The position numbers were made by a program, and so were the translations under genes. Shown here one piece after another: positions 13,464-47,873 of a DNA stretch of 64,000 nt. The notes below the pieces were generated by a model that did not search any database, had not been told where the DNA came from, and worked only from the letters and a program-made list of their open reading frames with translations. Location of the stretch: positions 6,282,489-6,346,488 of the forward strand of contig NC_049993.1 of NCBI RefSeq assembly GCF_000003815.2. The letters are read 5' to 3'. The first letter of the stretch is position 1. Every line of letters begins with the position of its first letter. The DNA is from Branchiostoma floridae (Eukaryota; Chordata; Leptocardii; Amphioxiformes; Branchiostomatidae).

Positions 13464-14284
13464 TTAGGCTGCCGATGTATAGCGGTGTTCAGTGGCTCGT
13501 TCTGTGACACACGTAAGGCTACCTCAGCTGGTCTTCGAATCAACCAATAAATTTGATAATGATTCAATGATAAACTGGTGTGGTACCGCTACAATTTTAA
13601 GGATGACAAGAGAGGAGTCAATCGAGGTTAGAATAGCATACCAAGCTAACGCTATACCGGGTCTGCTAGATGGGGCCATATTTATTTGAATTTCCATTTG
13701 AATGACCAAGTAGACGTTTTCTCTACACCATAGACTGTTCGAACGGCACCTACGGCTCGGACTGCCTGCAGACGTGCCACTGCTGCGCCAGCGGGGACCA
13801 TGTGTGCAACATATACACCGGCGTGTGTAGCAGTGGTGGGTGTGTCGCAGGGTGGGAGGGCACGTCGTGCCAGAAACGTAGGTATAGTTGTACCTGGTCT
13901 TAGACCGGTCACTGACACTGTCCTCTTGTCACAACTAGTCATCGATCCGCATCATGTCAAGTCAGGCTTTACAATTCATTGACATTTCTTACTGCAATTT
14001 TTCAAAGAAAGTATCATCTAAATTTAGCGAATCACGATGTTGTTTCTCTTGCAAATATGCATAGATAGATACGTTGCCTCTGGTTTTCTAATCTCTACCT
14101 GAATCTCTTTACTCAGTAACGGATTTAGACGAGTGCTCCCTCGGTACAGACGACTGTGATCAGGTCTGTGAGAACGTCGTGGGAAGCTTCACCTGTTCCT
14201 GCTGGGATGGGTACGCAATGGACGGCGGCACATGTGTGGGTAAGTATCTAGACTCATTCCTCTCATACTATGTCCACTTTTTTG

Positions 14285-15335
14285 CATTTTGCCGCCTTAG
14301 CGGCAAAATGCTCTGAGGCCAGAATAGTGGCCGTTGTGATGTTGAGATGAACGGACCTGTTCAATTCATGCCAAACATTTCTATACCTGTTAAAACAGGC
14401 ATTTTTTCAACAAGTTCGCACTGGCGCAGTGGTTAAAGTTTACGCATTCTAAACCAATGCACCCGGTTCGAATCCGGGGAGGTAGCTTTTTTTTTTTTCT
14501 TTTTTACACCATTAAAATACTAATTTTTACATCCATTTGGCCACACCAATTTATTTCTTTGGTTAACGGATTCGCCGCTTCGTTTTTTTGCCGAATAGAA
14601 ATAAAAATAAAAAAAAAAACAACTTAAAAATGCCCCGCAACAGAGCTCACTCAAAAACAGGCAGTGTAGTGAAATTTGCTGCAGTTCACGCAAATTTTAA
14701 CAGGTGGCGTCTAGATCTAGATTCAGGCACATATGTGAATCTCTCCATGCGCCAATATCAGGTTTAGTTACTCTGTTCTATTTATATGACATTCTAATAA
14801 CTAGAAAAAGACGTTCACACACGCAAACATTGGCAAAATGCCAGCTTTTTTAAAAGCACTTGTTTAATGTTTAGTAAGACCACACTGACCTAATTTTATG
14901 GATGACATCGGCGCGCCTAATGATTTTCGTCACCTCCCTCATTAAAAAAAACATGGGGTTACATATTATCCCATATTAATCAGAATTTTATGCTTACCGG
15001 AGGACCTGCTCTCCAGGGTAGGGGGGGCCCATGGTCAAGGCTAGGGCCACAGCGTCCTTGTTCCCTCCTTAAACAAGAATGGCAATACAAACATGATTGA
15101 AATGGCGACGAGTGTCTCTTAAAGTCTTACTGCAGGTGAACATAGGACAAACCAAGCCGGGAAAGAATGGTCTGGATGTTTAGTCCTGTGGTATAGCAGA
15201 ACTTTTTAATTTTTGCTGGATTTTTTTTCTCTTTTTTTTTTTCGCCCGCGCGCTTTAGCTTTGGGGTCTTCAGAGGATGTCATTTATAAGATTAAGTCGG
15301 CGTGGCCTTAAGGTCACCAATAAACCAATCCACTC
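14285..15335. mobile_element. ~1-kb insertion with a tRNA-like SINE head
   Basis: The intron between the two Ca-binding EGF exons is about 1,255 bp here but 230 bp in the intact paralogue (23574-23803), so about 1 kb was inserted; ends are approximate. At 14419-14487 there is a tRNA-like stretch with an A box (TGGCGCAGTGG) and a B box (GGTTCGAATCC), followed by a T/A-rich run. It does not form a closed acceptor stem, so it is a SINE-type promoter and not a tRNA gene. A hairpin of GCATTTTGCCGC / GCGGCAAAATGC lies at 14284-14312. The part at 14800-14880 matches 54275-54355 in reverse, so this is a dispersed family. Confidence 0.75.
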
Positions 15336-16548
15336 GAGAGAGAGCTACTTACACTACTACACCTAAAAACTGGGTGAGATGAAAGAGTTGCTTTTTAAGT
15401 TTCTTAAGTAGTATGTGCTTTTCTATCAGAAGAAAGATTATCCCCATTGTAATATCACTAATGAGCATGCTGTGTTTTATTTCCTTTGAATACAGATGTG
15501 GATGAATGCAGTTTGGGCATTGATAACTGTGAGCACACGTGTCACAACCACGTGGGTAACTACACCTGCTCGTGTAATGAGGGCTACTTTCTGTCGAGCA
15601 ATGGCTGGAACTGCACAGGTACGTTACAGACGTTACCTTACAATGTCAAGTTACATTTATGCTTCATCGACCGCTAGGAATGGAGCATATTTTTCATAAA
15701 ACGTTTCAAGGTCCGCATACATTTCATTACATAGAAATCTTTATTGACACGACAAAAGTACAACGACTTTCGTAATGTCTATATGTATAACAGCTACTTA
15801 CAGTACAACTAAACAGACATATATGGATATCTAAAGGTATGAATAAGTCTAGCATATCATTTGCACTATTGGTTCTAAGGTATAAGCATTCGTGTAATAT
15901 ATATTTGCCTACTTGAACACAGCGAGGGTTATCGCTTTATACATTAGTACATTAGATACATTTGTATGTATGTAAAATCCATTATCTTTCACTGCTCTTT
16001 TCAGAACCCCTGACTTGCATCGTCATTTCTGCAACCCAGCAAGCGCCTGTAGAAACGTTTCTCTGTTCTGCTCATCAACGAGAGGAGCACTTCGCAAAAA
16101 ATCACGAAATCAGCCTTGCAGTGGAAGGGGTAACACTACGCAACCTCATTCCTATCAACGAGATAAATTGCCCATTGTCCTTTCTTCTTCTTGTCCTTAT
16201 CATCCTGTCGGACGATCAGTTGTCCATTGTCCACGAGTCTCTTAAAGTTACCAACGTCCCATTTCCTTTTATATGACATGTGATAAGTACCAAATGTCTA
16301 ATTTACAATGGAGTACCAAGTTTGGAAAACATACGTCTTCTTATATCCGTGACTTTTTCTATCGTGCATAACACTGCTTTATTCCATTGCAGGTAATTGG
16401 AGAGATTGAAACCATCAGCTGGACGGTAAATGGCATCAATGCAACGTCTTCCTTGAATCTAACAGAAGGTGTTTACACGGTCCAAGCAACAGCAGTTAAC
16501 GAGTTCTCTGAGCTCTCGACCAACATGACCCTCCGTGTTGTTGACTGA

Positions 16549-18522: not shown

Positions 18523-21500
18523 ATGGCTTCTCCACGTAAAGATGCCTTACAAGGTGCACTACTAGTGGTGATTCTTACGGTGCTGTTCCTCCACGTCGCA
18601 GTTTCAGGTAAATGATTCATGTGTCAAAGTCAAATTAAAGAGACTTCCAAGTTTTGTTTAGTTTTCTGCCGTATCTCTTTCCTCGTGAATGTTCTAGACG
18701 GTGTTGTTTTTATTGACCTTGTGTTCTGAACGGTGTTTTCGTTGTCATTATTTGCTGTACGAAAACGCTGTAACACAGACCACCTGTCTCTGTAACGTTA
18801 CAACAGATGATGACGAGTGTGCGGAAGGGAGTGACAACTGCGCCCAGTTGTGCACGAACACGGTGGGCGGTTTTACCTGCTCCTGTTGGGAGGGGTACAC
18901 ACTGCACGCTAACGGCTGGTTCTGTCATGGTAAGTCGGCTCCTCAACTTAGCCAGAAACTAGGGACGTCCTAACATGATAAAACACTAAAGAAGACTGGC
19001 AAATACTTAAGACAATAAATATCTATGGTGTGTATCCATGTAAAACGGCACTAGTAGTAGTACATATAGTGTGCGCTTGAAATGCAAGAAGATCAATGGC
19101 ATTGGTTGCGAATTGCTAGCACTATTATCATCGTTCCTTTTGTACAGACCTTGTATGTTCTTCAACCGTGATATTTATTTCTCACTTTCATGTACGTTTA
19201 GTTACGATCTTTCTTGTTTTCACAGGCCCAAAGGTGGATCTGTATGTGGAAATGCAGTATCCCAGAGTTGACGTGACAAGTACTGGTAACACTGAGGTCC
19301 TTTGTCGGCCTACCCTGGGGGACCTGACTTTGATCAATGGCTACCACGTCGGTATCAAGTTGGACACAGGTCAGCACAAATGTCCACTCCACAATCCATC
19401 ATAGTACGGTTGTTTCGCTGTAAATGAATTTGATTTTGAAGCCAGGAGTTGAGAGTTTGGCCATGGGTCCCGGAGGTTGTAGCTCACCCGACTTGCACGC
19501 TACTGGTAAGGGCAATGCAGTTCTCTTGTATAAACCGTATTTTTAGAAGACAGGTAGCCGATATTCCTTGAAGCATTGAGGCCATAAATATGTCTTGTCA
19601 CAGCCATACATTACTAAGTACTAAGCTCTTCTAGGTCAACATTACTCTCCAGGCAGAGGTTCGACTCCGGCTGTTTTTTTAAACGTATTATGCGTTTTCA
19701 TCGGGCTTTCTACTTTGTACAGTGTTCTTTATGTCTCGCGGACGCCTATAAAAACGTTAACAAACAGCCGGAGCCGTACCTCTGCTTGGAGAGTAGACCA
19801 AGATCTGATTGGAAGTATTTTTCAGGTTACGGCACCAACATTAACTACCTGACGTACGGAGATGACTACACTAGTATAATATTAGGTTCCACGGGTAGCA
19901 GCTACGGGCTCAGGCTATTTGACGACGCCGGGAACTTCCGAGTCAACGCCTTCTCCTGCCAGACGACTCGGAATGGATTAACACGTGAAGTTATCGGCTT
20001 TACCATTCTCACTACGGGTGAGGCGCCCATAAAGATTGACAGATAGGTTTGCTACTGGAAATTGAGGTCATTCTTGCGACTGTCGTGCAGGTGTCGTATA
20101 GCTGTCTTGAGACATAAATGGTTGTGTAGCCTTTCGCCGGTCGGTTCTGATGTAGCCTAGTGGGGAGCCCAAAATCTAGTGGGGTCGTGTGGGAAAAGGG
20201 TAGAGTGTTGTCGCTTAGAAACAAGTGTTCCCGGATTCAAGTCCTGCCATGTCACCGATCTTGTGCCCTTGGGAAAGGTGTTGAAATGGGCACCTGACTT
20301 CGGTAGGGGAGGTAAAAGGCGGTGGAATCAGTAGATTGGGCTCCGCCTTCCAATAACATACCAGAGACACAATGGATAGCACCCCATTGTCCTTTAGCTT
20401 GTAGCGACTTAAAGACCATGGAACGACCTTTTGTCTGTCCTTTGTATGTTGCACTGATGAAAAACGTTGATAGTTTGAGTGCATTGCCCCAGTTTGCAAA
20501 TAAAAAAAAATAAAAAAAAAACATCCAGCGACATAAACGTACGGCGACCTTCCAATTGAAAAACAATGTTCTCTCTCCCATTGCAGCTTACTTCCACCCA
20601 CAGTCGTTCACTGTCACGGTCAACATCAACGAAACCGCGACGCTTTCCATGTTTGAGTACAACCCGGCCCCTGGCGGCCACAACGGTACTACAGAGTGGA
20701 GGAAGGACGGTTCTGTGCTGCCTGGGAGCTACACGGATTGCATCCTGGTTATTGATAACGTTCAGGTTAGCCGTTGTTAGGACAAGAACACTCAGCTACA
20801 ATACTACATGGGAAAGGTAGCAAGTTTGTGGATTTCACTTTTGTACTATTGACTATCCCGCAAAATTACTGTAAACGTTAAAAAAACAGGCGTGGATGTC
20901 ACCTTTTAAAGATAATCAAATCAAGACATTGTATTTTCCTCCATTTACGCGTTTACTTACACGTTACTATTTCAAATTCTAATTGATACTGACTGCCAAT
21001 GAAAGACTTTACCAGAATTTGTACGTGATATATATAAGCATCCTTTATATTTACTTCGATCAATCAATACAATACAGTGGAAGCCGCTTAATTGCACACC
21101 CAATTTGCCAGCGAATTCCGTGCAATTATCCGGCGTGTGCGATAATGCGGAGTTGGTCATTTAGACCGCATCACCACGGTCGGAGGGGCCGAGAGGTGGT
21201 ATGGAAGGTAGTACAACGCACAATTTATGTACGTGTTACAGTAGTGCTGTACCTGTTGTGCTCCGGACGTCATATACATCTGTATCTGTATCTGTATCTA
21301 TATAGCCGGTATAACCGCCGTTCGGCGTAACACACCAGCTTCGCAGGCACGCGGCGCGGCAGCAGCTGGTTATATTACACCGAACGACTCGTTACCCAGA
21401 ACAGAACAACTTTTGCACATCTATCTGCAAGCGTTCTTTAAAACTACCGAGAGAAGATGCCCCTACTGTACTTGGTGATAACAAGTTCCACTCTACGATA

Positions 21501-24500
21501 GTTCTGGGAAAGTACGAATTTTTGAACACATCAATCCTAGGTTGGTAACTCTGGTATTTGAAGGCATGACTGTTTCTTGTTCTTTTTTGAGCTGGTATTA
21601 GATACTTATCCGTTGGTACGTCCACCAGTTTATTGGTCATTTTGTACATCATGTCATTGGTCATTTTGTACATCATGTCTTTGTACATCATGTCTTCACG
21701 AAACATCGTACTAACCCATCAAATAGTCATTTTGATGTACTGAAGGATACTACGATGAGAATTTTAATTTTCTTGTCCCCTAAGTGTCATTTCTTTATCT
21801 TGTTTTAAAAGATGTCTGATGAAGGCCTGTATGAGTGTTACTACACGGGAAGGTACAGTGACAACAAGCAAGGCATCATGAGGCTGATCGTCAGAGGTGA
21901 GCTCTTATGGACAACATATTAGATCAGCGACTTTTTCCTTCAATTACAGACCGAAATAGTGTTAATATCTGAGAATAGATCGACTTCACCTTTACCTATT
22001 TACGCTTGTGACCGCATTGTAAATACATTTTTGTATAATCAAATTAAGTAGTCTCTACATTGTAAATACGTTACGTCTGTGATCGCATCTGTACTGTGAA
22101 CAGCGACACATGTGCTGCATTACAATGTGAACCAATTAGAATTGCCATGAAGAAGGGGACAGACGGTCACCTAAACGTTGCTAGTGAATGAAACAATGGG
22201 TGTGTAAAAATCTTTAACAATGGTTGTGTAAAAATCATTCTTACCCATGCCTTTCTCCCATGATATTAGAGTGTCCTGAAGGGAAGTGGGGTCCTCCAAA
22301 CTGCACCTCCTCGTGTGAAGAGTGTTACAATGGCGGCGTGTGTGATGACGAAACGGGGCAGTGTATCTGTGCACCTGGATTCGGCGGCTTGCACTGCGAT
22401 CTAGGTAAGATAACGTCACCGTGCCGTCAATGTTTTCTTATCACTACAATAAGATATGGTCGTAAGGAAAGCTTACAAAACATGACTCAGAATTCAAGAC
22501 GTAAAACTGTTCATTGCCACTGTTTCTATTGTTTGGGCAAGGACAAAACAACCAGCAGAACTAACGTTACACAATCGGTCACTTTGTGTTTTACATTTCC
22601 CTCCACCAGAGACTATGAAAAACGGCAATAGTGCGTTACTAACCCAAGTAATTATACTTTGTTCATGGAATGATGTTCTGTATATACTAGTACATTGTAA
22701 CTAGACAAAATATCATGTACGTTTGTGTTGTTTGAAGGCTGCTCAGTTGGTTACTTTGGAGACTCCTGTATCAGCCGCTGTGCTCACGGCAACTGTCAGA
22801 ACAAGATCGTCTGCGGCCCGGACCCCTTAGGCTGCCGATGTATAGCGGGGTTCCATGGATCTTTCTGCAACACATGTAAGGCTACCTCTGGTCTTTGAAT
22901 CAATTGTTCCCTTTTATACTGATACAATCCTATCCTGCTATCTATCCCCTTCTAAGGATAAGAATAGAGGAGTCATTCGAAGTTAGAATAAGGTGCGTAC
23001 CGAGTTAACGGGTCTGCTGAATAATGCCGTATTTGGTTTCCATTTGAATTACCAATTGCAAGCAGACGTTTTCTCCACACCATAGACTGTTCGTACGGCA
23101 CCTACGGCTCAGACTGCCTACAGACGTGCCACTGCGCCACCGGGGACCATGTGTGCAACATATACACCGGCGTGTGTAGCAGTGGTGGGTGTGCCGTAGG
23201 GTGGGAGGGCACGTCGTGCCACAAAGGTAGGTATAGTTGTACCTGGTCCTATACCTGTCACTGACACTGCCAACTAGTCCTTATATCCAGTTAGGGTTTC
23301 CAATTCATAGACATTTGTTACTGCGATCTTTCAAAGGAAGTATCATTTAACTTTAGCGAACCACGATGTTGTTTCTCTTACAAATATGCATGAATACATT
23401 TTATGTAGACACGTTGCCTGTAGTTTACCAATTTCCACCTGAATCTCCATACTCAGATGTAGACGAGTGCTCCCTCGGTACAGACGACTGTGACCAGATC
23501 TGTGAGAACGTCCCGGGAAGCTTCACCTGTTCCTGCTGGGATGGCTACATCATGGACGGCGGCACTTGTGTGGGCAAGTATCTAGACCCATATGTCCTCT
23601 TTTCTTAAGTTTAAAAATGGCCACCGCTAAACAAGGCTCATAATCGACTCCAGATCAAGAGCTACTAAGACATAAAAACCGGGTGAGTTGAATGAGTTGC
23701 GTTTTAAGTTGTATGTTAACGTTCTTTTCTATCAGAAGAAAGATTGACTCCGCTGCAATATCACTTTAATGATGATGTTTTCTTTTCCAACTCTTACATG
23801 CAGATGTGGATGAATGCACTTTGGACACTGATAACTGTGAGCACACGTGTCACAACCACGTGGGTAACTACACCTGCTCGTGTAATGAGGGCTACTTTCT
23901 GTCGAGCAATGGCTGGAACTGCACAGGTACGTTACAGACGTTTCTTTTCAATGTTATATTTATGATTTATGAAACGCTAGGGCTGGAGCATATTCTTCAT
24001 GAACCGTTTCAAGGTCCACATACATTTGATCAAGCTAGTATTTAGCGTCGGTGTAGGTACATTTGTGTATGTGTGGCATCGAAGAATAGCCCAATCATTG
24101 CCTTTCACTGCTCCTTTCAGAACCCCTGACTTCCCTCGTCATTTCTGCAACCCAGCAAGCACATATAGAAGCGTACCTGTCCTCTAATGACCAACAAGAG
24201 GTGTACTTTGCAACAAATCATGAAATAAGCCTTGCGGTGGCACAGGTAACACTACGCAACCTCATTCATATCAACGAGATGAATTGTCCATGTGAGACGA
24301 GTCTCATAAAATTACCTACGTCGCATGCCCTTTTTATGACATAGGAGTGTCTGAATTACAATGGAGTAGCATGTTGGGACAACATTTGTCTTATCCGTGA
24401 CTTTTGCTACCGTGCATAACCCTGTGCTTTATTCCATCGCAGGTAATGGGAGAGCTTGAAACTATCAACTGGACAGTAAATGGCGTCACGGCAACGTCTT

Positions 24501-27500
24501 CCTTGAATCTAACTGAAGGTGTTTACACGGTCCTAGCAACAGCAGTTAACGAGTTCTCTGAGATTTCGGCTAACATGACCCTCCGTGTTGTTGAATGTAT
24601 CCACGAAGTACGCGTATTTCACGTTGGAACCGACGACCCTACTCCGGTAGAGGTTTCCCCGCCTATAGGCTACGCTGCATGTCAGTACCCGGCTAGATTC
24701 CTTGTCTTGGTCAGACAGGTGGGTTACAACGCCAGCTATGTCGCCAGCGTTAACGGCGGTGGTCATTTTGAAATCCCAACTCCCGTGGACTCCACCCAAG
24801 CCGGCAATTTGATGTCATACCAAGGCGTCATACCCCACGACCTTTCGGAATACTACCTGGCTACATTCACGCTCACGTTTCAGGACCAAGGGCAGTACCA
24901 AGTTGTCGTCAACGGGTCAAATATCCTGTCTGAGACCGTGGCAGATGTGTCTGTAACGGCAGAGTGGCCGGTAACAAGCGTTCTTGTGACCGACAACAGT
25001 CCTGCCCAAGCCCCGGACCCCGTCGTCTTCACCATATGGCTCTTGGACTCAACTCCACCCACAGACTTGTTCTTCGATGCGTCCTATGGCGACGGCTTTG
25101 ATGGTAACGTATTGATATTTCTTATATTCAAATAAGATTGCCATAGTTAATATCATACTGAAACACATGGGTATTGGAATAGACAAATATAAAACATAAT
25201 AGCAAATAGAAAACTGCTGCAACACACATGTGATGAAGTGGATTCCAAGACAATTCTGCACCTAGACACTTTGGCCCTTTGACGACCAAGATGATTCGGC
25301 ATTAGTCCCAGGAGGGTTAACCCTAAACCCAGACTCTAACCCCTGCCACCACCCTGATGGGAACTGTTCTGATTGGCTAAGGGCCAAACTGCCAAGGTGC
25401 CGAAACGTTCTGATACCAATGATGTGGTCTCTCGCTACATAATGGAGAAGTTAGGGATTTCCTCTTTTTTCATTCTCTCCCCTGCCAGACGTCGCTTTTT
25501 ACGTTGGAGATCAGTACACCGCCATGCAGCCGGAATTCTCCATCGGGTACCTGTACTTGCCTGGATCGTATTCATTTTTCATCCGAGTGTATAACCAGGT
25601 AAGACTAAGGGCCCGGTCACATTGTCACAGTCTCGTGCGATTTTTGTGTGATCGCAAACTGAGCGCATTGTTGTGTCGGTCGTACAAGTGCCGTGCAAGA
25701 TTAAGCTGTCTTGTTCCGAAAAAGCTGTATTAGATCAGCTGTTTGCTTCTGTCACAGCTTACAAAAAATCACAATCGTTCGACGGTCCACGACGAATGTG
25801 ACCGTTCTATAATATTCTAGTCCGATAGTTGTGCCTTTAATTTGTGCAGTATTATAAACGTGCGGCACAATGAAGTAATGCAAATATTCAGGTAATATTC
25901 CTTGCTTCTCACATGTCTATGCTCAGACTCTATCTTGTAAAATGTTCATCAGGTTAGCGAGGCGTATGGGTCCATTTACGCAACCCAGGACTACCAGCTA
26001 TATGGCTTGAACCTCACGATTTCCTCTGCGTTCTCGGGAATCCACAACGGAAAGGTATTGTACGAAGGTAAGGAAAATTTACATTTATCCTCGTGGTGCT
26101 TTTTTTGTGTTTGTACAAGTCAGGGAATACTAACACCAAAACTTTCTCTTCATATTTTTTTCGTAGGTGTGAATATGACTGGACAGGGCCCAGGTGAAAG
26201 CGTCTTCGCCGGTCCCCCACTTCTCATGCCCGTGAACTTCGAGTACGAGGTCTCTCAGGGAACACAGGATGACGTGCACACGAGTTGGTAAATTCACATT
26301 ACTTTATGTATTGAATATATTGAATAGAAAGGCAAACCATAGACCAGCCTTGCCAAAGGAATAGTCACTTTTCTATGAAGAATACATTTGAATCTGACTG
26401 TATAATGTCCATGCATATGCACTGAGTAGTTAAGTACAGGTGTATTGATGACACTGTCACTTTTGTTATGAGTCAATTTCTTGATATATATTTAACCTAT
26501 CAAAGGCCCAATATGTCCTTCTGAACTCGAGTGACTATCACTTCCTAAATAAAGGTATGCACTGCAGTATATAACATATATGGCGGTTCGGTCAAAGGCC
26601 ATGCCCTTGGTGCTGAAATATGGGGGGGGGGGGGGGTCCTAAACCATGTCATGCGGGCTACATGCCGTCTCGATGGAGAGTGCGTGTGTTGGACCATTCA
26701 AAAGCAAAGGAATGAATCATAGCAATGTCCCGAGATGGTTTGGCAATTTCGGATCAACTCTGATATTATAACTCACACGGCCAAACTATTACATTTGTCC
26801 ATTATTTTGTTTTACTGGCTATGGCAAATAAATAGAACAGTGAAAGTCAGTTTTGTTCTCTAATTTGGCATTTCACCGTCTCGATTTCCTCCGCTTCAGG
26901 TGGTTTATCGGTGATGAAGTCGCCGGAGAGGAGTTGAAGCTGTCCGTCACATTTCAGGAGGTTGGGACCTACACTGTCACCGCAATAGCCTTCAACCAAC
27001 TGGCCGAGATGAGCGGTGAATCCCAGGTAAAGCAATGGCTATTTGAATAAAATTTGAAATCCAATCCATGTGAAATCTTCTACCTTATCATATATGACCT
27101 CTTTCAGTATTGATGATCAATCAGTTTGGACACGTGACTCTCGTATAAGGTCAAAGATGTCCGGAAGTCTGCACCGCCCCTCAGCTCAGTTGGGTGAGAT
27201 CTGAAATCAGTAGGCTCAAATAGTGGTCCATGAGTACAAGGAGGTTAAGTGGTTCCAAATGGCTCCTCCGTTGTAGTGACCCTTTGCAACACGAGAATTG
27301 TTGTTGATCTGATATTCTCCAGCGCGAGTGCCGTGATATGTATTTGTGATTATTTTTTACAGGTGGATATTTACGAAACTATCACTAATGTGTACGTGGC
27401 CAGCAATGATCCGGTCTTACTCGGCGAGACGATGACATTTGCTGTCTTCGCCACTTCTCCCGGAACAAGCAGTACCTTTCTGTTACAGGTAATATAATAT

Positions 27501-30500
27501 ACAGACAACTGTGTATTGAAAGACTACTAGTAATAAGGGCACTAAGGCCTGCAGTGACAATGCCTAAACATCGACATCTTGTGGGAATTAGGCAGAAGTA
27601 AAATGTTGTATGCCAAATATTACCAAAGCATGGTGACAAGATTCAAAGCAATATGCTGACGTTGATATGCTGACCCGAGACATTGATATTGTAAAGCTTA
27701 CATTGCTGGTTATCTATTACAACATACATGTAATATCAATTGTTTCATGACCTTTTATACATATCAAAAGCTGTTACGACCGTTGTCTTATGTTTTGGGA
27801 TAATAAATTCTGTTGCATTTGCCTTTCACAGTTATCTGAGGAAGACCAGAATCTGATCACCCTTACTCCGCCGTCCAAGGACAGCAACTCAGTTGCCATA
27901 GTTGAATCAACCTTTCAAGGCAGGAACTTTCCCTTTAAACTGTCGGACGTGTACGTCACCTTCTACTCCCATGTGTATCCCTCCGCCGGCACATACCGGG
28001 TACAAGTGAATGCAACGAATGCTATATCTACGGCCAACGCAGAGACAGTGGTCACCGTGCATGAAATCCCATGCTTCAGACCGCGCGTTGACATCAAAGA
28101 CGACGGGACTAGCACGGTTGTCAACCCTACAGCATACAGAAGAGACCAGGACATAGCTCTAGCCGCAACTGTGCAACTAAACTGTACTGCTGCGAATAGT
28201 AGGACATTCAAGTGGAAAGCCTATACCATGGCGGGATTGCAGTCAATTCCGTATTCGTCAAATGAGGCAACAATCAATAATGTACTCAACGGAACTACTG
28301 AAATCACCATTCCAAAGCACACGTTAGGATACGGGCGCTACATCTTGGAGTTTTCCGTAACGGAAGTTCACGGGGTGAACGGTACAGATGTGACGATCAG
28401 CAACTCAGACTACACGTGGTTCGAGATTGTTGAAAGTGCCCTGGTCACGAGAATTTCTGGAGGGTCCTTGATATCTATAGGTAGGTTTTCTCTCGAAAAA
28501 ATGTTGCTAAAGATATAGGGCAGCCAGTAGATTTTCCCCCCAAATATACCTGTTTCTGGCAATAGATCTATCACTTTGCAGGAACAAATAACAACATAAA
28601 ACAAAACAGGTGATGAACAAAGGCCTGCACGGATACATGTCGTTTCTCCACAGTTTAAGTATGGTATTATCTTTCGCATTTTCTTTTGAATCCACTCAAA
28701 ATCAAGCATGCTGTGTGACGCTAGAATGCCTGTTTTAAAGCCCCCTTCACACGAGAGCACGAATGAGCCGGAATGCCGTCCGAATGAAATTTTTTTTTCT
28801 ATTCGTGGCAATTCCTCGCAATTCGTACTGTATTCTAAACATTCTTACTGCATTCGAGATATTCGTCCCCGTTCTTTTGGCTGGCTCGAAAGTTTTTGAC
28901 ATGTTCAAAACTGTCGAAGTGCATTCGAAGTGGAGAAATATCGAATGGCATTCGTAATGGATTCTTAGTGTATTCTAACTATTCTGACTGCAGTCTGACC
29001 GCATTCTACGGCATTCTAACATTATTCGAAACATTCTTATCTCATTCGATGGAGAACCGAAACGGCAAGCCACCTCGAATCCTGACAGAATGTGGCCGAA
29101 AGAATATTTCGAATGCCGTAAGAATGTCTAGAATGCACCACGAATTCACAGGAATAGACAAGAATTTTCATTCTGACGGCATTCCGGCTCATTCCGTCTC
29201 GTGTGAAGGGGATTTAAGGCCCATTTGGAATTCCCACCCGAATGGCCCCGAATGTGGCACAAATTTTGCAAATACTTCATTCCGACTGGTTCGGCTTGAT
29301 TCCTGCTAATTCGATTTCCGTGTGAAGGCCCTATTATGGATGTTCCTTGCGACCGTGTTTGTGACCATGTTCTCCCCACGAGTAGGGCGGAATTCCACCG
29401 TCAGAATTGATGCCTCCACATCGTACGACCCGGACGTACCTGAGTCTGAGTCCACCTCAGGATTGACGTACACCTGGTCGTGTCGAATGGACAATGAGAC
29501 CTTCACCAACGACGAGAGTTCAGCCGAGTGGATGGAAGGTATGTACGAAATGAACATCCACCACTTTGTCATCGCCGTTTTACTGTACATTTATGTTTTG
29601 TGAAATGAGCACACTCGTTACCAGTTACACAGTTATCAGTTTAAAATCTATTCACTCTAGTCACATAAAAGGCCCTTTAAATTAATACAACGCTGACAAC
29701 CGGTTTGAAGAAGTTGGCCTAAACGTCAAGGCAATGGTTGATTAATGTCAATTTCAGTATTCCTTGTTCATCATCGTTCAAAACTGAAGGAATAACATAA
29801 TGTCCTCCAGCAAAGCTCACGTTATAACATATCTTCCGTTTTATTCAGGGGGCTGTTTAGGAGGCGGTAAGAGCTGGCCTGTGACGAACAACACGAATCC
29901 TTTACTAGTCATTCCAGGAGGGACACTAGATGGTGAGATAGACAAGGAGCACCCTGTCAATGATGGTATTAAGTAATTATCCCTGCGGTGTTGTGGAGAA
30001 CGACCAACAAAACGTTCAATATATATGTAGAGATATGTTTTCATGGCTGGACCAGAGTCGAACTGTAATTTCCAACACACACACAAAATAAATTACCCAA
30101 AGTTTAGACTGATCAATTACTGTCTTTGTCAGGGAATTAGCAATCAACCGCTTCTGTGACGTATATCAACACAGATGAACTTTCAGGTTACAATATGACT
30201 TCTTATATCTCTGTACAGTTGAACACAGTTGCGCTTATCTATCTCGGTCAACACACCTCTGTTTCAGGGGGAAAAACGTACGTCTTTCGGGTGACAGTGT
30301 CCAAGCCTGGTCGACAAGCCGGTGGCCACGCAGAAAAGATTGTTGTCATCGTGGAAGGCACGCCTCCGGCCCTGGAAGGGATCTCGTAAGCACAATGGAC
30401 TCAAAATCTACTAACGTTTATCATTGACTTAAGATACAGAATCACCAGATTTCTTACCGAACTCACAACGACTGACGAAAACTAGCGGATGCTAGTTGAA

Positions 30501-33500
30501 ACGTCTGACCGTTTCCAAAACCATATCTAGTTGCTTGAGTAACTGCTTTTTGGCGTATCTTATTACTTGGATGTCTAACCTTCATCGACGTAACTTACAA
30601 CCTTTTTCACGAAAAATGACTATACTTGGGCTGAATGGACACATGTCTTAGACAGTGTGTCAAAACATTGATATTGAAAGTTTGAAAAACATTTTTCACA
30701 CATCTCATCATTTCAGGTGTGTGCGGAATTGTGGACAGTACCTGAATCCTTCGGAACGTCTAGTTCTGAAGGCCAAGTGTACCGACTGCACTTCCGGAAA
30801 TCGTCTTCAGTATTACTGGAGTTTAGTGAGCAACTCTGTAAACAGTAAACAAGAGATAGACTGGGACACAGACGCACTCACGGGCAGACAGAAGAAATAC
30901 CTGTCTATTCGAAAAGGCACGTTTGCGAGTGGCGCCGTTGCGGAAACCTACACCATACGAATTGACGGTAGGTGGAACAATTATGACAGAAATCATAAAA
31001 AGGCTTTATGGAAACCATGAAATAGTATACTCAAATCCGTTGGGATGCGCACCTTGAACATATGTTCTGTGATGTGCTTATGAATTTTTCCCTGATCTTG
31101 TTTTTGAGCTGACGTTGTCCTCAGGGGAAAACGTCTTCATGATTTTAATGACGTGATAAACATACGTATTATACATGCATCATCTTACCTCTCTTTAACA
31201 ACTACCACTACCTCGTGGTTAAAGAAAATACGATGTTTGCGCCATTTTGCTTTGTCTCTGTCTATTGAGGACTTGAAATATATAATCATAAGTTTGTATT
31301 CCATTAACAGCATCCGATGAAAGCGGAGAGTCTACGTATGCACTGTACAGCTTCACGACCAATGTCCCGCCAACTCTGGGAACGTGCACGGTCGTGCCAG
31401 ACACTGGGACTGTGATGGAGACCTTGTTTCAGGTCACGTGTTCAGGATTTTTGGACGTGAACCTGCCTCTTATATACAGGTTTGCAGCCATCTCTGGTGT
31501 TGCTACCTCAACAAAGGCCTGGAAACAAGGTAAAGCAACCTTTAGTTTGCGACAAACTTACTACGTCTTGTGTTGTGATCACCTTTTCTTGACACTGCTG
31601 ACCTGTTGCGTGCCATTGCAACACTAGATCTTTACTATCTTTTATCGTCGAATATCTGTGATAGGTACAATGGTCTACTACGGCACAGACAGTACCTCTT
31701 CACCCTTGTATCTGCCTATTGGAGACGAGGACAACGATTACTTGATCACCATCGCTATCCGTGTCACAGACTCTTTTGGAGCGACTACGGAGACAACAAC
31801 AACCGCAACGGTGATGCAATAATCTTTTATCGGTTCTAAGATCGGCACCAAATATGTTTTGTTTTACAACAGATAGTCATTGTTGAAAAAAGAACTGTTC
31901 TGAAATGGTTGCCATATCATAACAGAAAAGCATTAAAGGATATGATGATTGTAGCATGGTTAGTGAAACCAAGCCAAAAGAATCTAACTAGTTTGTCAGT
32001 GTCCACCTAACATAAACTAGTAAAACGTACATTTCTCATGACATAACATAGGCAAATCATCTGAACTAACTCAGGTATGTCTTTAGGTTTTAGAGAGAGA
32101 AACGAAGGAAAATGTATCCACCGTTATCACCAACACGGAAACAACGGTTGATGCGTTACTGGAGGCTGGTAACAGTCAGGCGGCTTTGCAGTTGCTTACC
32201 TCCGTCAGCTCTACCATGAACATCGATACAACCACAGGCCAGGAGGAAAAAACTCAGGTACCAATACATAAGATATGGCCATCTAGTATCACACACAACG
32301 TTACGTGTATGAGAGACGCACATGTGTCATCATTTACTGTAAGGTCTCATCACACCATTGATTCTAAGGGCGTCTCTGTACATGTCTTGCACCACATTGG
32401 AGAGGTACTTTTCCTAACTGAGAAGATCTGAAGTCTTCGCGGACAGTATTCAGTAAAAATAGTTTAGTTCTAGAATGTCAATATGTTCCGCGAACGTTGT
32501 TTGCTAAATATCAAACTTTAAGGATAAATGCCAGACATATATGTCCTGCACAAATCCAACTTCTCATCACTTCCTATGCTTGCAGAATATATCAAATGAC
32601 TCTGTCTACAGATATTAAGTGTTTTTCGCTCTTATTCGCATATAACATCAGCTGCGGAAAGGTGCCATTACCAGTTTGAACAGGATCCCGATTAAAACTC
32701 TTGACAGTCTTCAACAAACTGCTACGACCATGGCTCAGCTTACCGAAGAGGAAACCGAGCTCTCAGGGGACGCGCAGGTTTGTAGGTTGCATAAACAGAC
32801 TTACAATGTAGACATTGATGAAACTGGGAATTGTAATTGCAACCATCAATATATCACTTTTACGTGCAGTTCTGGGATGATACTTTGTCCATTCATGGTT
32901 TGACTAGACATGGTTTAAATACACATGTATCAGTTTAACCATATGGTCTTGAAAACACTACTGTACCTACTTTTCAATAGACACGTTTATTCTATTTCTG
33001 ATCAAATTTTCAAAATTTGTTCAATTTCCCGATTTATCAGGGTCTGGCCGTATCGAAACTCGCAGAAATGACGACATTTCTGAAGGCGAAAACCGAGGAT
33101 GGAACCGCCAGCGGCCAGGCGGTGGAGGCTGCCGCACAGGCCCTGATATCCGGCCTGGCTAATGTTGTCAAAGCAGCTGCTAGGAGAACATCAACAGTTC
33201 ATGACCACTTCACGGTGGGTACAAAACTTGCAAGAATTGTAACTATGGATGTTTCTGATGAGCTACGTATCTAAGCTAGTATCTAATATACATTGAGTAG
33301 AACTGATGGTCGTTGTCAATAGTCTCTACAAAATGACAATCTATTTGATTTTCTATTTTCAAAGTTATCAGGAGTAAATTGGGCAAGCTCAAAAGTTGCG
33401 CTTAAGTTGTTAATGGTTAAGAGTAAATTCCTTAATGGCATAGCCGCCATAGTCAGAATTGCAGTCACAATATCAAAAAGTCAAATATGTTTTGCCTCAT

Positions 33501-36500
33501 TTCAGCCAAAAGTATACCCGTGGTCCTCTGCTATCTTACACCAGTCGCTGCAGACGATATCTACCGTCAAACAAGCCGTTCTGTCCACGAAAGTCCCTGG
33601 GGAGGAGCCCAAGGTACTGACCACCCCCAGCCTCGCTATCATGCTACAGCGGGACGAAAGTCAGAATTTCCGCGCAGGCGCGTACGTGCAGGAGGACTTC
33701 GGCAGTTTGTTCTCAGTACCGAGTGGGGAGGACTTGTTCAGGAACGCCACCATTCAACCCGACCAGATCATCGACATGCATGTAAGCTTCTTCCTCTACT
33801 TCCTTCACTATCGTCCGACTTTTTGCCTTGAAGTATACCATCGTTTAAAGCGATAAAAAGATTTATTTTTTCGTACACTGACAAGTTTCTTCCAGTCTTA
33901 AAGGGAGAAATGCATACCTTTGCCAGCTCGTAAATTCTGCAAAGTCAGTATTATGTCAAAGAAGCAGTTAGTTTTGTTGTCGTATCTTATTACCTGGATG
34001 TCTAACCTTCATCGACGTAAAACAATAATACCATTTTGACATAAAAACTAGCCCGTACATACAGCGCTCTTTTCCGTATCATGATACTTTGATGTCACGT
34101 CTTCTTGTTAGATGACGCACTTCAGCAACAACCCATATCAGTGGGCTACTAACAGAAGTCTGGAGGATACCGTTGTGTCACTGGAGTTCACGTCTGAAGG
34201 CCAGGACATCCCTGTACGGAACCTAACGAAATCAGTTGACATAATCATCCCTCGGGACGATAGTTCCGAGTCCTGGAGCACCGTTCGGATATCAGGAGGT
34301 GTTACAGACGTGCAGGATGTTACTGCTTTCAACACCACCGACGTCCATGTGGGTGTAAACTTCATTTTCATATTTAATCTTGATCGTTCGTGCGAATTAG
34401 ATATCCAGTATCACTCTTTTGTGGCGTCGTGTGTGGCGCAACTGTTAGAATGTTGGGCTAAGAATCTAGAGGCCCCGGGTTAGATACGGCCATGACCCCG
34501 AGGTAATGCCCTTGGGAAAGGCACTTTGCACGACTTTTCCTGACGGTGGAGTCACGTCCACCGAGCTTTATTGGCTAATCTGTCAATAATGTGCAAAAAA
34601 ATACACACGCGTATTTGGTGTGCCAATGTCCACATGTCCATTTCCCACCATAACTTTGTCATCATTCTTTTGGTTACTTTATGGTATTCTTCCTTTCAGG
34701 AAAATCAAACCTTCTACGTCTTCCTGCGATCCTCCAATCCGGCATCAGAACTAACTCTGTACCTAGGAGAAGACCAGTATCCAACATCTCTCAGCTACAC
34801 AAGCAAACAGAACCTACCTTTTGCGACTACCTATACACTTGAAGTTGCTGAAGATGGAAACATCACGGCCGACCCTTTCTTGTGGCAGCTCGGCATATTG
34901 AACACCTCTTCTGCGTATTATCTGGGTATCTCCTATAGCAACAAAGGTTAGGAGGCCCTGCAACGTTCTTTGGTTACTACCTATTTGTGTGTATCCTTGT
35001 GAAGACAAATCACAGTTTGTCTTTAGTATCTCCATTTCTTTCATTGTAACTTAGAACCACTTCTTCTCTTTCCTTACACGTACTTGCAGATTACCTGGAC
35101 CTGGAGTTATTGGTGTTCACCAGCACCTGTATCTACTATGACGAGACCACATCTACGTGGCAACGCGATGGCTGTCAGGTATGTTTATCTCGTCATGATG
35201 TTCCATGTGACCATCTTTTCGCCGAACTTTTATGGTGGAATCATTAGGTATGTTACAACGTTTTTCTAACAAATTGATGAACTCATGGATCCATAACATC
35301 CGTTATTACAGTTGTATGATTTTCACATGGATCTTATCCAACCTATATTGTTTGATAGGCTGAAGAACGGTCTAGTCCATAGAGTCAGTTGATAACAGAT
35401 GACCAGAGGGGCAATTGAAAATCGCACCAAACCATTATTTCTCACCTTACAGCTCGGACCACTGACCACACCTAGCCGCACACACTGCATTTGTGACCAT
35501 CTGACGTCGTTCGGCTCCACTTTCTTTTCCCTGGCCAACGACGTTGCCGTCCAGACTCAGACAGATGATAATATCCCCATTATCCCCATTGTCGTGGCCT
35601 CAGTGTTTGCGGTATATCTGATAGTGGCGAGTTGGGCGTACCTGAAGGACAAAGAAGATAAAGTTATGGTATGTACGTAAGAGCATCACGTTCACTTCAT
35701 ATTTGTGTATCAATTATATCAATGATCACTCATTTATATACTTGTAGTCATCATTCATTGATAAAGGTCAATCAGTGCTTTCATGCTGTTGACGTTATGA
35801 GTCACAAAAAAACTACAATAGCGAGAGATTCACACAGACATGCCATCGTGACATAGACACATGCAAAACATCACTATTGTCTTATGGGGTTCCCACAGTC
35901 AGTCTCTCTACTTTTCTCATGATCAGGTTGAAATGATGGCGGTAAAAGATCGGAACCCCAGGCACCATTATCAATATGAAGTCACGGTCGTTACGGGATA
36001 TAGAAGGAAGGCTGGAACCACGGCCAATGTCAAAATCCGGTTGATCGGAAACTATGGTGAGTGATTTCGCAGTTTTGGACTATCGTTTTTTGTCAAATAT
36101 GACACTAACTTTACATTGTTAAGAGCATGTTTGTCCAAAGTCGACCAGTCTTCATTGATTCTTGATATCATTTTGTTTATTCAAAACTTTAGGAAAAAGT
36201 AAATTCCATACCATATCGGATCCACTGGCCAATAGGAAGGTTTTACAGCGCGGAAGCTTTGACTCCTTCCTCATTGCTACTCGTCACTGGTTGGGGGACA
36301 TCAAAGACATAGTGATCCGGATGAACAGCGACGGGAAGAGCCAGTCTTGGTATGTGACTGATACGTTAGAAATAAAGTACAACAGTTATACTTGTTACAG
36401 TGTTTTGAAAAGCTGCAATTCGTGGCAAGTATAAAAGATTTATGAGCAGTTGGATCTCGTGTGAAATATACTTTGAATCAAATATTATCATTAATTCGTG

Positions 36501-38167
36501 AGTCATTTCTAGTAACACCCCCGGCATGGTCGGACTGTTATGATGCTCGTGACAGTCATTTCTAGTAAACCCCCAGAATATATATTTAGACCACTGTTTG
36601 TAACACTGAATAGGTATTTGAGCCGTGTCATGGTACGGGACTTGCGGACTGGCCAGCGGAGGCACTTCATTTGCAACAGGTGGCTAACTACAGATCAAGA
36701 AGGACGAGAGGTACAGTGTATTGGTGCAAAGCAAGTGCTGCCATTGTTTACGGCTAAAGCTCTCTTCGGTCTTCGGGACGAGCACCTCTGGCTCTCCATC
36801 ATTACACGACCTCCAAGAAGCAGGTATGGCTATTCTAGGCAAGATCCCAGACGTAGTGCATTATTGCAGGCACTAGGTAGACGCAAAATTATTGCAAATG
36901 ATTCAGAAGCTTTTTAGAATCTATATTGGTAAGAGGAAAACATTTCTACCGTATAACACAGACGTTGACGCTCCTTTCGAATCATACGTTCTAGCTTTAC
37001 AAGAGTTCAGCGGGTGACGTGCTGTCTCATCACTCTGCTGTGTCAGATGGGCGCCGCCATCATTTTCCACGGCACATCTGGAGATTCCATTCTTGGTGAA
37101 TTTCGGTTGGGATGGGAGCAGCTTATCATTGGCGTGGAGTCGGGCCTTGCAGCTTTTGCTATAAGCAGCATACTCACCGCTCTCATCAAGTCCGCTGCGA
37201 AGGAAAGCAGTAAAGAACGTCATTGTTGTGGTGGAAATGATGACATAAAAAGCACAACAAGAGAGGTGGAGATTGAAGTCTGGCTCCGTGACGACTGGCA
37301 AAAAAGGAGTGTGAAAACGAAAGTTAGGACTTGTTGCCGACGCTTTTGCAGGTGAGTCGTCGTGAAGTCGTGTTTCAAAAACTTTCTATCGCCGCGTCAA
37401 TTTTTACATTGTCGTATCGGTTCCAAATATGGTGTGCTGCACTGAAGGTTGAGTTATAAGTTCAATGTAAATGTTGGGATTATTCGTCAGTCCAAAAAAG
37501 AAGGGACTGTTCATCAGCACCCAAGATCCTCACCTAAGGATAACATTGATATTCTGTCTAGATTCTTCAATTCCCTGCCCGAACAGAATATTGCTTTTTC
37601 TCTCATCGTTTTATCCATTCAAACACCAGTAAACTCCCTTCACGGAGTTGTGGACATCTGGTATGGGTCCTGGCTTTTGTCATGTGCAGTGCAGCGGCAT
37701 CTTTCGACATTTATTATGGGATAGGCTTCGAAAAACAAGAGGCTCTCAACTGGCTGGTATACATTGGAGTCGCCTTTCTACAGGTAAGTTATGATTGGAA
37801 CTGAACGATCAAACCCATACCTAACGCCCTGGGCAGAAGCATTACTAATACATTATAAACTGCTTTTGTTACATAATGCTGATTTATCTGGCATCAAACT
37901 GAAAATCTACATCATACTTATGCCCTTAGCTTCCCTTATATTGCCCTGTCTTTAAATGTGACTGTTTTTTATTTGATGTTGATTTTTTTGCTGTATATTC
38001 ACGTAACATTCACCATATAAAACAAATCGTTGCCTCCTTAGGACCTTTTGATCCTGCAGTTCATCAAGGTTATCATAATTGCTGTCGTCAACTCCCTGTG
38101 TTGCAAAAAGTACGATGAAGAAAGCTGGGTCCCTGTTTTACCATCTGAACATCCTGCAGGTAAGTGA
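18523..38167 (+). CDS. Tie-like Ig/EGF ectodomain fused to a polycystin-1-type REJ-GPS-PLAT membrane protein
   Basis: A 39-exon gene, about 2,437 aa. Exons: 18523-18607, 18807-18929, 19226-19369, 19742-20017, 20587-20765, 21812-21896, 22270-22404, 22738-22875, 23086-23226, 23457-23573, 23804-23926, 24121-24245, 24443-25103, 25489-25598, 25953-26067, 26167-26287, 26900-27026, 27363-27488, 27832-28480, 29386-29538, 29849-29932, 30175-30385, 30717-30967, 31311-31529, 31665-31810, 32087-32257, 32652-32777, 33041-33214, 33506-33781, 34112-34348, 34700-34946, 35090-35178, 35453-35668, 35927-36056, 36193-36349, 36614-36823, 36995-37351, 37630-37783, 38042-38167. All phases join. Order: signal peptide (1-28), EGF, Tie-like Ig1-Ig2-EGF3 (70-435), two EGF-CA, PKD-like region, REJ (about 977-1548), GAIN/GPS with HLT site near residue 2004, TM1, PLAT (2061-2226), TM2-TM5. 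Exon 4 lacks an AG acceptor and exon 10 has a GC donor. The last exon reads through its donor-like site to TGA at 38165; the family's TM6-TM11 half is absent. A surface or ciliary receptor role is inferred. Confidence 0.85.
20145..20521 (+). mobile_element. tRNA-headed SINE in intron 4
   Basis: A tRNA-like head with B box GGATTCAAGTCC near 20232, then the phrase TGCCCTTGGGAAAGG shared with 34505-34520, a unique body, and a 3' A-rich tail (AATAAAAAAAAATAAAAAAAA) at about 20501-20521. It is therefore a retroposed SINE on the plus strand. Confidence 0.7.
21075..21280 (+). mobile_element. possible pogo/Tigger-like DNA transposon end
   Basis: It starts CAGTGGAAGCCGCTTAATTG after a TA, which resembles pogo-type termini, followed by AATTGCAC/GTGCAATTATC motifs. 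The other end is missing, apparently cut by the LINE fragment next to it. Judged on terminal sequence only. Confidence 0.35.
21281..21715 (-). mobile_element. CR1/L2-type LINE 3' fragment in intron 5
   Basis: The minus-strand frame 21706-21392 ends in the usual LINE ORF2 C-terminus ([26 protein letters not shown]). It is followed by a 3' tail ending in TACAGA repeats at 21276-21300. An 18-bp tandem duplication (about 21640-21690) near the 5' end repeats MMYKMTN. Confidence 0.8.
23457..23926 (+). other. two calcium-binding EGF repeats (exons 10-11)
   Basis: Both start with DVDEC and carry the six-cysteine EGF pattern with a Tyr/Phe-containing core ([23 protein letters not shown]). Exon 2 near the N-terminus holds a third repeat of this kind ([12 protein letters not shown]), so the Tie-like module sits between Ca-binding EGFs. 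Confidence 0.88.
26622..26636 (+). repeat. 15-bp poly-G run
   Basis: Fifteen G residues in intron 16. The run length is likely unreliable in sequence data. Confidence 0.9.
28739..29333. mobile_element. composite foldback DNA element(s), ATTC/GAATG-rich, intron 19
   Basis: The left arm CCCCTTCACACGAGAGCACG at 28742 reappears inverted near 29175-29212 (CTCATTCCGTCTCGTGTGAAG), giving a 470-bp element near TTAA at both ends. Directly after it, 29216-29333 ends GTGTGAAGGCCCT, the end of a related second element. The interior is full of GAATG/CATTC words. It lies just 50 bp before the exon 20 acceptor. The family is not assigned. Confidence 0.65.
30465..30595 (+). repeat. dispersed repeat copy 1, with hammerhead-like core
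   Basis: The segment ends in TTGAGTAACTGCTTTTTGGC followed by a GGATGTCTAACCTTCATCGACG word that recurs at 33975-34025 (+), 47665-47765 (-) and in diverged form at 51215-51315 (-). Before it lie CTGACGA (30472-30478), a 7-bp hairpin AACTAGC-GGAT-GCTAGTT and GAAAC (from 30498), the order of a hammerhead ribozyme core. Confidence 0.6.
33975..34025 (+). repeat. dispersed repeat copy 2 (short)
   Basis: Shares about 45 bp (cgtatcttattacctggatg and the following word) with 30555-30595. It lacks the hammerhead-like part. Intron 29. Confidence 0.7.
34430..34610 (+). mobile_element. tRNA-headed SINE in intron 30
   Basis: The A-box-like GTGGCGCAACTG is followed by a degenerate B box (GGGTTAGATACGG), then the phrase TGCCCTTGGGAAAGGCACTT that is also in the SINE at 20270. 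It is a shorter and more decayed copy of the same kind of element. Confidence 0.6.
35927..36823 (+). other. PLAT (LH2) domain (exons 34-36)
   Basis: The stretch reads [19 protein letters not shown], then [30 protein letters not shown], and ends FICNRWL and [16 protein letters not shown]. This is the polycystin PLAT pattern including the exit sequence RPPRSR-FTRVQR. It lies on the cytoplasmic side between TM1 and TM2. Exon 36 runs without an intron through the internal GTACAG. Confidence 0.9.
36995..38167 (+). other. polycystin TM2-TM5 and premature C-terminus (exons 37-39)
   Basis: Hydrophobic segments include [51 protein letters not shown] and [20 protein letters not shown], with the conserved [11 protein letters not shown] entry. 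After [16 protein letters not shown] the frame reaches TGA at 38165 through an apparent donor (GCAG-GTAAGT). If that donor is used, an AG at 38293-38294 offers an exon that also stops within seven codons. No TM6-TM11 coding sequence is visible before the next gene. Confidence 0.75.
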
Positions 38168-39560
38168 AACTAGCAAATCTTACTTTTCCTTTAAATTGGT
38201 TTTTGAAATTATCCTTTAGAAAACCTGAATGATTGGCAACAAATTCAACCAGTCAGTCAGATATCTATGTCACAAGTACACCTAAGTTTCTTTAGATGTC
38301 ACTAACATATATTGACCATCCTCACAATGTTGCAGCTGTGGAATCGTCTCACAATGTTGCGGCCGTGGAATTGTCTCAAAATGTTGCGGCTGTGGAATCG
38401 TCTCACAATGTTGCGGCTGTGGAATCGTCTCATAATGCTGCAGCTGTGGAATTGTCTCAAAATGTTGCGGCTGTGGAATCGTCTCACAATGCTCTGGAAT
38501 TGTGGACACTGTAATATCAGCTCTCTGACCTGCCAAGACTACACAGATGTGCAACAAACTCTGCTGTCAGATGGTATCAACATCTCAGCTGAACAACAAA
38601 TACTCCAGTACTTTTGGTGCACATTTTGCCATACATATGGTGTGACAAAATTCTTGATAACAGATGTTCTCTTTGACAGAGAACTATATTCTCTTTGACA
38701 GAGAATCCAATAGATTAACTTTATGTTTCTCAATGTGCACATTTCTGATGATCTAGCAATGGAGACGTTTTAGTCTTTTTGAAAGTTTCAAGATGTTTGC
38801 ATAAATAAGAAGGCATTTTCTTGATGACTGTTTTTCTTTAGGGCGAAAATCAACGACATAGAACAGTCTCATACTGAACCTGTTATACAATTTCCTATTG
38901 TTTGTTGTTCGTCTTTCTTTGAATTCTGATTCATTTCAATTATTCAATCAACACAGTTGTAGTAAAGAGTTGTAATGTAGAGGTAACTTTGACATTTCCT
39001 TGATTCTTCAAGATCAACATGTACCAATAAGGTTTGACAAATAGTACTAGTATTTCAAAGCTACATGCATCAGAAATAAGACTTGTAGGCTGTACAAGGT
39101 ATTCAATATATCTACAAAATGTTTGCACTTATAAAGTGCAAAAGGACCTTGTGTAAAATCCTAGCAGCTTGGATGCTACTGTAAAACCCATGTTGGTTCA
39201 TAGCAAACAGCATTTATTCTAGGAGGCAAATTTGGGGTGCACAAAAATCCAAATACAAGCTACCAATGAAAGTGTACATGTAAATTTGATTTTCTCGCTT
39301 AGTGACACTTAATTTACACCATTAACCTCCATCTTCAATTAGGGATGTCCACTCAGCATCAGATGGCCCTTTTTTTTAGAGGAGCCACATCTTGATCATG
39401 CTAAAAGAACCTTTCACCCTTATTGATAAGAGTAGGGGTCCTTTTTGGGGTGAGTGTGTTATGCCTTATAAAGGCATAACACACTGACCCAGTTATGTGA
39501 ACAAACAAAAGTTAAACTAAAAGGTTTTAAAATAGACAGCATGTCCTAACATGCACTCCA
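38168..39560. other. intergenic stretch between the polycystin-like gene and ATPAF1
   Basis: It holds the 27-bp minisatellite at 38320-38505, a short direct repeat (TTCTCTTTGACAGAGAA) at about 38670-38704, and otherwise AT-rich sequence that should include the 3'UTRs of both convergent genes. No further polycystin exon was found on the plus strand. Confidence 0.7.
38320..38505 (+). repeat. 27-bp minisatellite, about 7 copies
   Basis: The unit is like CACAATGTTGCGGCTGTGGA plus 7 bp. Copies 2-4 and 5-7 repeat the same variant order, so an 81-bp trimer has been duplicated. Because 27 is divisible by 3, a frame stays open across it (VESSHNVAA repeats), but it is not joined in phase to the last exon upstream. 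Confidence 0.9.
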
Positions 39561-47864: not shown

Positions 47865-47873
47865 GAGCACAGA

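Follow-up and report, generated by a model that had tools for sequence, protein, structure and literature searches.

The closest described relatives of the gene reported here are polycystin-1, PKDREJ and the sea urchin REJ proteins, with which its predicted protein has PKD repeats, a full REJ domain, a GPS before the first transmembrane segment (TM1) and a PLAT domain after TM1 in common. Sea urchin REJs have between 0 and 11 predicted TM segments, and the TM6-11 region is not universal in the family, being missing from several SpREJs (PMC1934368). The available portion of that account names one EGF domain in SpREJ1, as well as C-type lectin, SUEL and WSC domains, and no Tie-type block (PMC1934368). 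In human polycystin-1, the stalk freed at the GPS is thought to act via the TOP domain and the pore loop (PMC9672506). A second set of relatives is the receptor kinases Tie1 and Tie2 (TEK); the second half of Ig1, Ig2 and EGF1-3 of Tie2 can be aligned to a block of the lancelet protein with near-identical cysteine spacing. Angiopoietins bind Ig2 of Tie2, where the motif tested is Phe161-Glu169 (PMC8294587, PMC3829167). Adhesion GPCRs have the GPS self-cleavage motif before TM1 in common with the protein. Mis-joined lancelet gene models have been documented, including a chordin wrongly fused to PKD_channel (PMC6071037), and several novel lancelet domain combinations proved to be gene-prediction errors (PMC4967905).

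In a 64,000-nucleotide window of the Branchiostoma floridae genome (C15:6282489-6346488), we describe what is probably one polycystin-1 (PKD1/REJ) gene with a Tie-type tip, Ig1-Ig2-EGF1-3, placed between calcium-binding EGFs, that would encode a channel-less, self-cleaving receptor. Judged from sequence, we put the probability of this reading at roughly 60%. The predicted protein differs from the polycystin-1/REJ family in its Tie-type Ig/EGF tip and in ending after TM5. It differs from Tie1 and Tie2 in having neither kinase nor FN3, in not conserving Phe161-Glu169 and in continuing into EGF_CA, PKD and REJ, and from adhesion GPCRs in having PLAT and, in place of seven TMs, a TM set of polycystin type.

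Exons were read by hand and gave a model with compatible phases throughout (Table 1). Of its 39 introns (99-1,046 bp), 38 are GT-AG and one is GC-AG; there are no stops inside the frame and no broken splice sites, and the only N runs in the window (1480-1640 and 2749-2901) lie outside the gene. The preliminary description had placed Ig, Ig and three EGFs in exons 3-9, followed by PKD, REJ, GPS (HLT), TM, PLAT and more TMs in one phase-compatible exon set. The model agrees on both counts: Ig1 is exons 3 and 4, Ig2 is exons 5 and 6, EGF1-3 are exons 7, 8 and 9, and the Ig/EGF phrases that had been quoted (42 protein letters) are found there. The 1-1 symmetry that it had invoked for the exons holds only for the block of exons 3-9 as a whole; within it, exon 5 is phase 1-0 and exon 6 is 0-1. 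The gene end, earlier put at 38167, had to be moved to 38514, or to the stop two codons past 38159. The acceptor of exon 40 is poor by eye, and the 3' end is uncertain.

Table 1. Positions of the features described, in coordinates of the window
Feature	Position	Strand	Remarks
Whole gene model	18523..38514	+	40 exons, 2,435 aa; C4 paralogue with same order
Exon 1: start and signal peptide	18523..18607	+	residues 9-27 hydrophobic
Exon 2: calcium-binding EGF	18807..18929	+	Pfam EGF_CA
Exons 3-4: domain at Ig1 position	19226..20017	+	no Pfam match alone; family profile aligns from Tie2 chain residue 71; conserved on C4
Exons 5-6: Ig2	20587..21896	+	Pfam V-set; within Tie2 alignment
Exons 7-9: Tie-type EGF1-3	22270..23226	+	best PDB match Tie2, 1.1e-23 alone
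Exons 10-11: two calcium-binding EGFs	23457..23926	+	Pfam EGF_CA, three stretches over entire protein
Exons 12-18: PKD-type repeats	24121..27488	+	Pfam PKD 1.2e-7, two stretches
Exons 19-25: final PKD part and most of REJ domain	27832..31810	+	Pfam REJ 1.2e-98
Exons 26-31: REJ end and pre-GPS stretch, GAIN-like by position	32087..34946	+	position; exons 28-33 49% identical to C4 paralogue
Exons 32-33: GPS motif (HL/T) and TM1	35090..35668	+	Pfam GPS 1.4e-7; TM scan
Exons 34-36: PLAT domain and linker	35927..36823	+	Pfam PLAT 7.8e-20; human polycystin-1 (PDB) 9.3e-38
Exons 37-39: TM2-TM5	36995..38159	+	TM scan; weak second polycystin-1 stretch at TM4-TM5
Exon 40: minisatellite-coded tail, 27-bp unit, stop	38336..38514	+	without splice to exon 40, stop two codons past exon 39
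Decayed partial copy of exons 6-13	12119..16547	+	inverted-repeat insertion in exon 8, stop in exon 13
ATP11 frame	40958-41263	-	profile 111-132, E 0.027
ATP11 frame	40422-40652	-	profile 139-186, E 2.3e-7
ATP11 frame, ends at 39561	39564-39863	-	profile 224-271 of 271, E 0.025

The predicted protein runs in the order EGF_CA, Ig1, Ig2, EGF1-3, two EGF_CA, PKD-type repeats, REJ, GPS, TM1, PLAT and TM2-5, and Pfam recovers EGF_CA, V-set (Ig2), PKD, REJ, GPS and PLAT from it. The REJ match covers positions 1-450 of the 452 in the profile. From the sequence motif, the GPS cut is predicted between residues 1946 and 1947. In the hydropathy scan the protein starts with a hydrophobic stretch, the only one before TM1, and has five TM segments after the GPS; with these five and the polycystin-1 match, the protein has no seven-TM bundle of the Adhesion GPCR type. 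No third Ig and no FN3 were found by Pfam after EGF3 in either half of the protein (E up to 1), and no tyrosine kinase domain in the protein or in the 144 downstream plus-strand frames scanned.

The preliminary description had proposed comparing the Ig/EGF block with Tie1/Tie2 and with other Ig/EGF proteins; against PDB, its best match is Tie2 and not a multiple-EGF protein. Searched as a single sequence, the block matches Tie2 at 4.2e-34, and proteins other than Tie follow from 5.7e-6 on; with EGF1-3 alone the next protein after Tie2 is SCARF1 at 1e-5. A profile of five members of the Tie-type block, all from the B. floridae genome, reaches Tie2 at E 2.3e-55, as expected of the Ig-Ig-EGF3 ectodomain of Tie receptors, and the first non-Tie protein at 4.7e-11. 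The profile aligns in one continuous stretch to residues 71-318 of the Tie2 chain; the stretch takes in the second half of Ig1, Ig2 and EGF1-3, and the first half of Ig1 lies outside it. Cysteine spacing nearly matches that of Tie2. The block scores 353 in the alignment to Tie2, compared with a maximum of 244 for 1,000 shuffles that left Cys and Gly where they were, and the EGF-only score is 318 against 254. Chance or generic EGF similarity is ruled out by the search margins and the shuffle test, and on these alignments the Ig/EGF block is specifically Tie-like. Ig1 alone has no Pfam match, and Ig1-Ig2 alone does not bring up Tie2 among the best 60 of 88 matches, so that only the family profile, from the second half of Ig1 onward, gives Ig1 its Tie identity.

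It had also been suggested that the fusion could bind a Tie-type ligand. For the known angiopoietin mode, the comparison speaks against this: in the profile alignment the Phe161-Glu169 motif is not conserved, with a six-residue insertion at this place that only Tie2 has. Between the same two landmarks there are 25 residues in Tie2 and 20 in the window protein, a loop five residues shorter (20 in the C4 paralogue described below, 22 in each of two further loci, L031 and L032, and 19 in a Tie-type kinase). Binding of angiopoietin in the known way is thus unlikely from the sequence. This head may have a different ligand, even one common to the Tie-type kinase.

We searched the genome (513,431,437 bases in 431 contigs) with several parts of the protein; these searches scored part of the candidates, and all counts refer to the matches listed. 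The GPS-TM part and the EGF triplet, used as separate queries, each pointed to contig C4 at 9.85-9.88 Mb, where the window protein aligns exon by exon and in the same order to a paralogue (C4:9854857-9876767) whose modelled exons are open and have splice sites. The exon model of C4 was first built with equal phases forced; in a rerun over 35 exons, with phase left free within 45 bases of that model, both intron phases were kept in 33. This rerun omits exon 27, which was not found, and exon 36, which is split in C4, and exons 1, 10 and 40 are unmodelled. The two genes were compared in eight blocks, some before and some after the join between EGF and PKD parts, which leave out exons 1, 10, 26, 27, 36 and 40; protein identity is 46-68% by block (PLAT 53%, the five TM segments 46%). 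Non-synonymous change is 0.21-0.33 per site against 0.70-0.89 for synonymous change, and third codon positions change most in all eight; in four of them saturation of the synonymous sites makes dN/dS incomputable. The intron at the join, from exon 11 to the next exon, is 194 bp in the window and 164 bp by model in C4, and neither AATAAA nor ATTAAA occurs at 23900-24450 of the window. A query spanning the join gave strong PKD matches only in C4 and in the window, with a decayed copy far behind (98 matches; 95 of 1,350 candidates scored). The two genes differ in that one EGF_CA was found after EGF3 in C4 and two in the window. A further relative at C17:1.66-1.69 Mb has a polycystin body of lower identity (the 40 kb examined barely pass the REJ part), and no Tie-type EGF lies near it among the matches listed. 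Because the C4 paralogue has the same layout, the join of Tie-type and polycystin parts looks real, and the earlier claim that a Tie-type Ig-Ig-EGF3 block and a polycystin-1/REJ body belong to one gene model is borne out.

The paralogue and the window gene part at the channel. The C4 gene (C4:9854857-9880818 in all) goes on to a large frame, 9879193-9880818, that matches Polycystin_dom (7e-25) as well as PKD_channel (1.2e-32), and a PKD_channel profile search of the genome hit it at C4:9879802-9880464, with none inside the window among the matches listed (150 of 400 candidates scored). Pfam detected no polycystin channel in the window protein. Downstream there are 187 plus-strand frames that are 38 aa or longer; the 144 of them that were scanned gave no channel either, and 42 of the remaining 43 lie beyond 57.2 kb. 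The minus-strand Pfam scan covered 67 of 169 frames. When the C4 channel frames were compared with the window by tblastn, nothing better than E 0.2 appeared. Channel exons further downstream were thus found by none of the three routes (Pfam on frames, genome profile search, tblastn), and the window gene has no TM6-11 channel-like region in these searches.

Between 38100 and 39560 there is no AATAAA or ATTAAA. The 3' side of the gene is closed by convergent minus-strand frames of ATP11 (ATPAF1 type) over 39561-41263, perhaps further; as the three frames are collinear in the profile, the ATP11 reading is likely, though two are weak alone. Five other minus-strand frames nearby, four from beyond 41.5 kb up to 46.3 kb and one in between, had no match. 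Beyond the ATP11 gene, two plus-strand frames at 47865-48834 match Nuc_sug_transp (7e-16 and 6.5e-19), and six frames of this family occur between 38.2 and 57.4 kb.

Upstream of the gene lies the decayed partial copy, with 75-95% DNA identity to exons 6-13. An inverted repeat with 92-nt arms, resembling a small mobile element, is inserted at 13273-13464 and splits exon 8 of the copy; in exon 13 of the copy the frame meets a stop. Between the main gene and this copy dN/dS is 0.42 over seven exons (exon 8 omitted, exon 13 start only). A 183-bp satellite of about 66 copies fills positions 1-12085 and ends directly before the truncated exon 6 of the copy. On the minus strand at 16811-17164, a frame resembles by eye the end of a non-LTR retrotransposon reverse transcriptase; Pfam gave no match for it at E up to 0.1.

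Tie-type exons are many in the genome, with at least 156 EGF-triplet matches (150 of 423 candidates scored). Among 24 loci inspected, several have Ig2 and EGF1-3 in order, and L031 and L032 also have Ig1. On C15 itself, at about 7.948-7.968 Mb, Ig and EGF1-3 exons like those in the window are followed in the same direction by FN3 and tyrosine-kinase pieces, unlike in the window gene. One of two FN3 pieces and four of six kinase pieces passed the Pfam cut-off, a TM-like stretch lies between them by eye, and the gene looks like a Tie-type receptor kinase. Between its TM-like and kinase exons there is a 915-aa open repeat frame (C15:7960448-7963192, L063:448-3192) with a sub-threshold Pfam match only, which we take to be reminiscent of AHNAK. 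An intronless receptor-kinase frame at C18:18503320-18506643 (L040), with cadherin-like, EGF and Ig parts by eye, was not accepted as Tie. Among the matches listed are many frames on C1, C7, C8 and C12, each about 950 aa long, with similarity to the EGF query as well as to the kinase family.

A tree of the EGF part was built from 12 rows, nine of them hand-picked from 30 loci, and 137 columns, and has one starred branch; the Tie-type blocks of the window and C4 genes pair in it at 98/96. The window branch is short (0.027) and the C4 branch long (0.87), human Tie2 is a long branch, and the other relations are weak. The pairing fits a single joining event before the two genes duplicated. Exon shuffling, which the preliminary description gave as the origin of the fusion, is plausible since the block is 1-1 as a whole and Tie-type exons abound.

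On our preferred reading, the full body was most likely present in an ancestral polycystin with a Tie-type head and is retained by the C4 paralogue, and the window copy would have lost everything beyond TM5. We infer this direction, C4 ancestral and loss on C15, without an outgroup, and it is the window gene and not C4 that has the short branch in the EGF tree. The Tie-type tip and the PKD repeats would engage a partner on a surface or in the matrix, self-cutting at the GPS would leave two parts held non-covalently, and pulling or binding could then alter the stalk and the TM1-PLAT-TM5 part. Neither a TOP domain nor a pore loop was found in the window gene, so the protein probably cannot by itself be a channel, and a regulatory, competing or adhesive role is the best guess: it may be a regulator or competitor of another polycystin, such as the full-length C4 protein, or it may act as an adhesion receptor. 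The route from stalk to TOP domain described for human polycystin-1 (PMC9672506) would be impossible in cis here, and the mechanism is only loosely borrowed from it. Expression, cleavage, partner and signalling of the window protein are likewise things that we infer.

Among the alternatives, the one that survives best, although we consider it unlikely, is that the window copy no longer functions and is what is left of a decaying C4-type gene. The missing channel, the clearly decayed partial copy next to it and a last exon made of a minisatellite would all suit a remnant, against which stand an intact 40-exon model, a short EGF-tree branch (in one block of 137 columns) and, with mild force, the dN/dS against the decayed copy. 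Less probable again is a secreted or shed adhesion protein, in which cleavage at the GPS sets free the Tie-PKD-REJ part, with the TM part as no more than an anchor. The GPS with HL/T is present, and channel-less sea urchin REJ proteins with 0, 1, 2 or 6 predicted TM segments exist (PMC1934368), but PLAT and five TM segments have been retained here at appreciable identity to C4. More doubtful still is a scheme of two genes, in which a partner of the Tie-type head would gate the polycystin channel encoded on C4, the window protein, with that head but no pore, would serve as its co-receptor or decoy, and one ligand might be common to both heads and to the Tie-type kinase on C15. That the model is mis-joined, or that a Tie-like EGF protein and a polycystin are encoded by separate neighbouring genes, has precedent in the documented lancelet prediction errors (PMC6071037, PMC4967905) but is highly improbable given the short intron and lack of AATAAA/ATTAAA at the join, the single hydrophobic stretch before TM1, and the C4 order and the constraint on both sides of the join, the last two of which appear to answer the danger of a mis-joined model.

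Loss of the channel is not in itself new, since sea urchin has REJ proteins without one (PMC1934368), but a Tie-type head on a polycystin/REJ body appears to be. The combination was absent from the titles and abstract openings of the literature covered; subscription journals and animal protein databases lay outside this scope, and a predicted protein may well have been deposited there. The finding adds a novel lancelet-type domain combination that is internally supported and does not resemble an annotation error. It indicates that the Tie ectodomain, which in vessel biology is a kinase head, has also been placed on a polycystin, a sensor protein of the kidney-disease type, and that this combination is old enough to have duplicated and been kept under constraint on two contigs. 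The paralogues with and without the channel are a natural experiment that allows a direct test of the TM1-PLAT-TM5 half alone. If the doubtful shared-ligand scheme were true, a single ligand class would address both a kinase and a channel.
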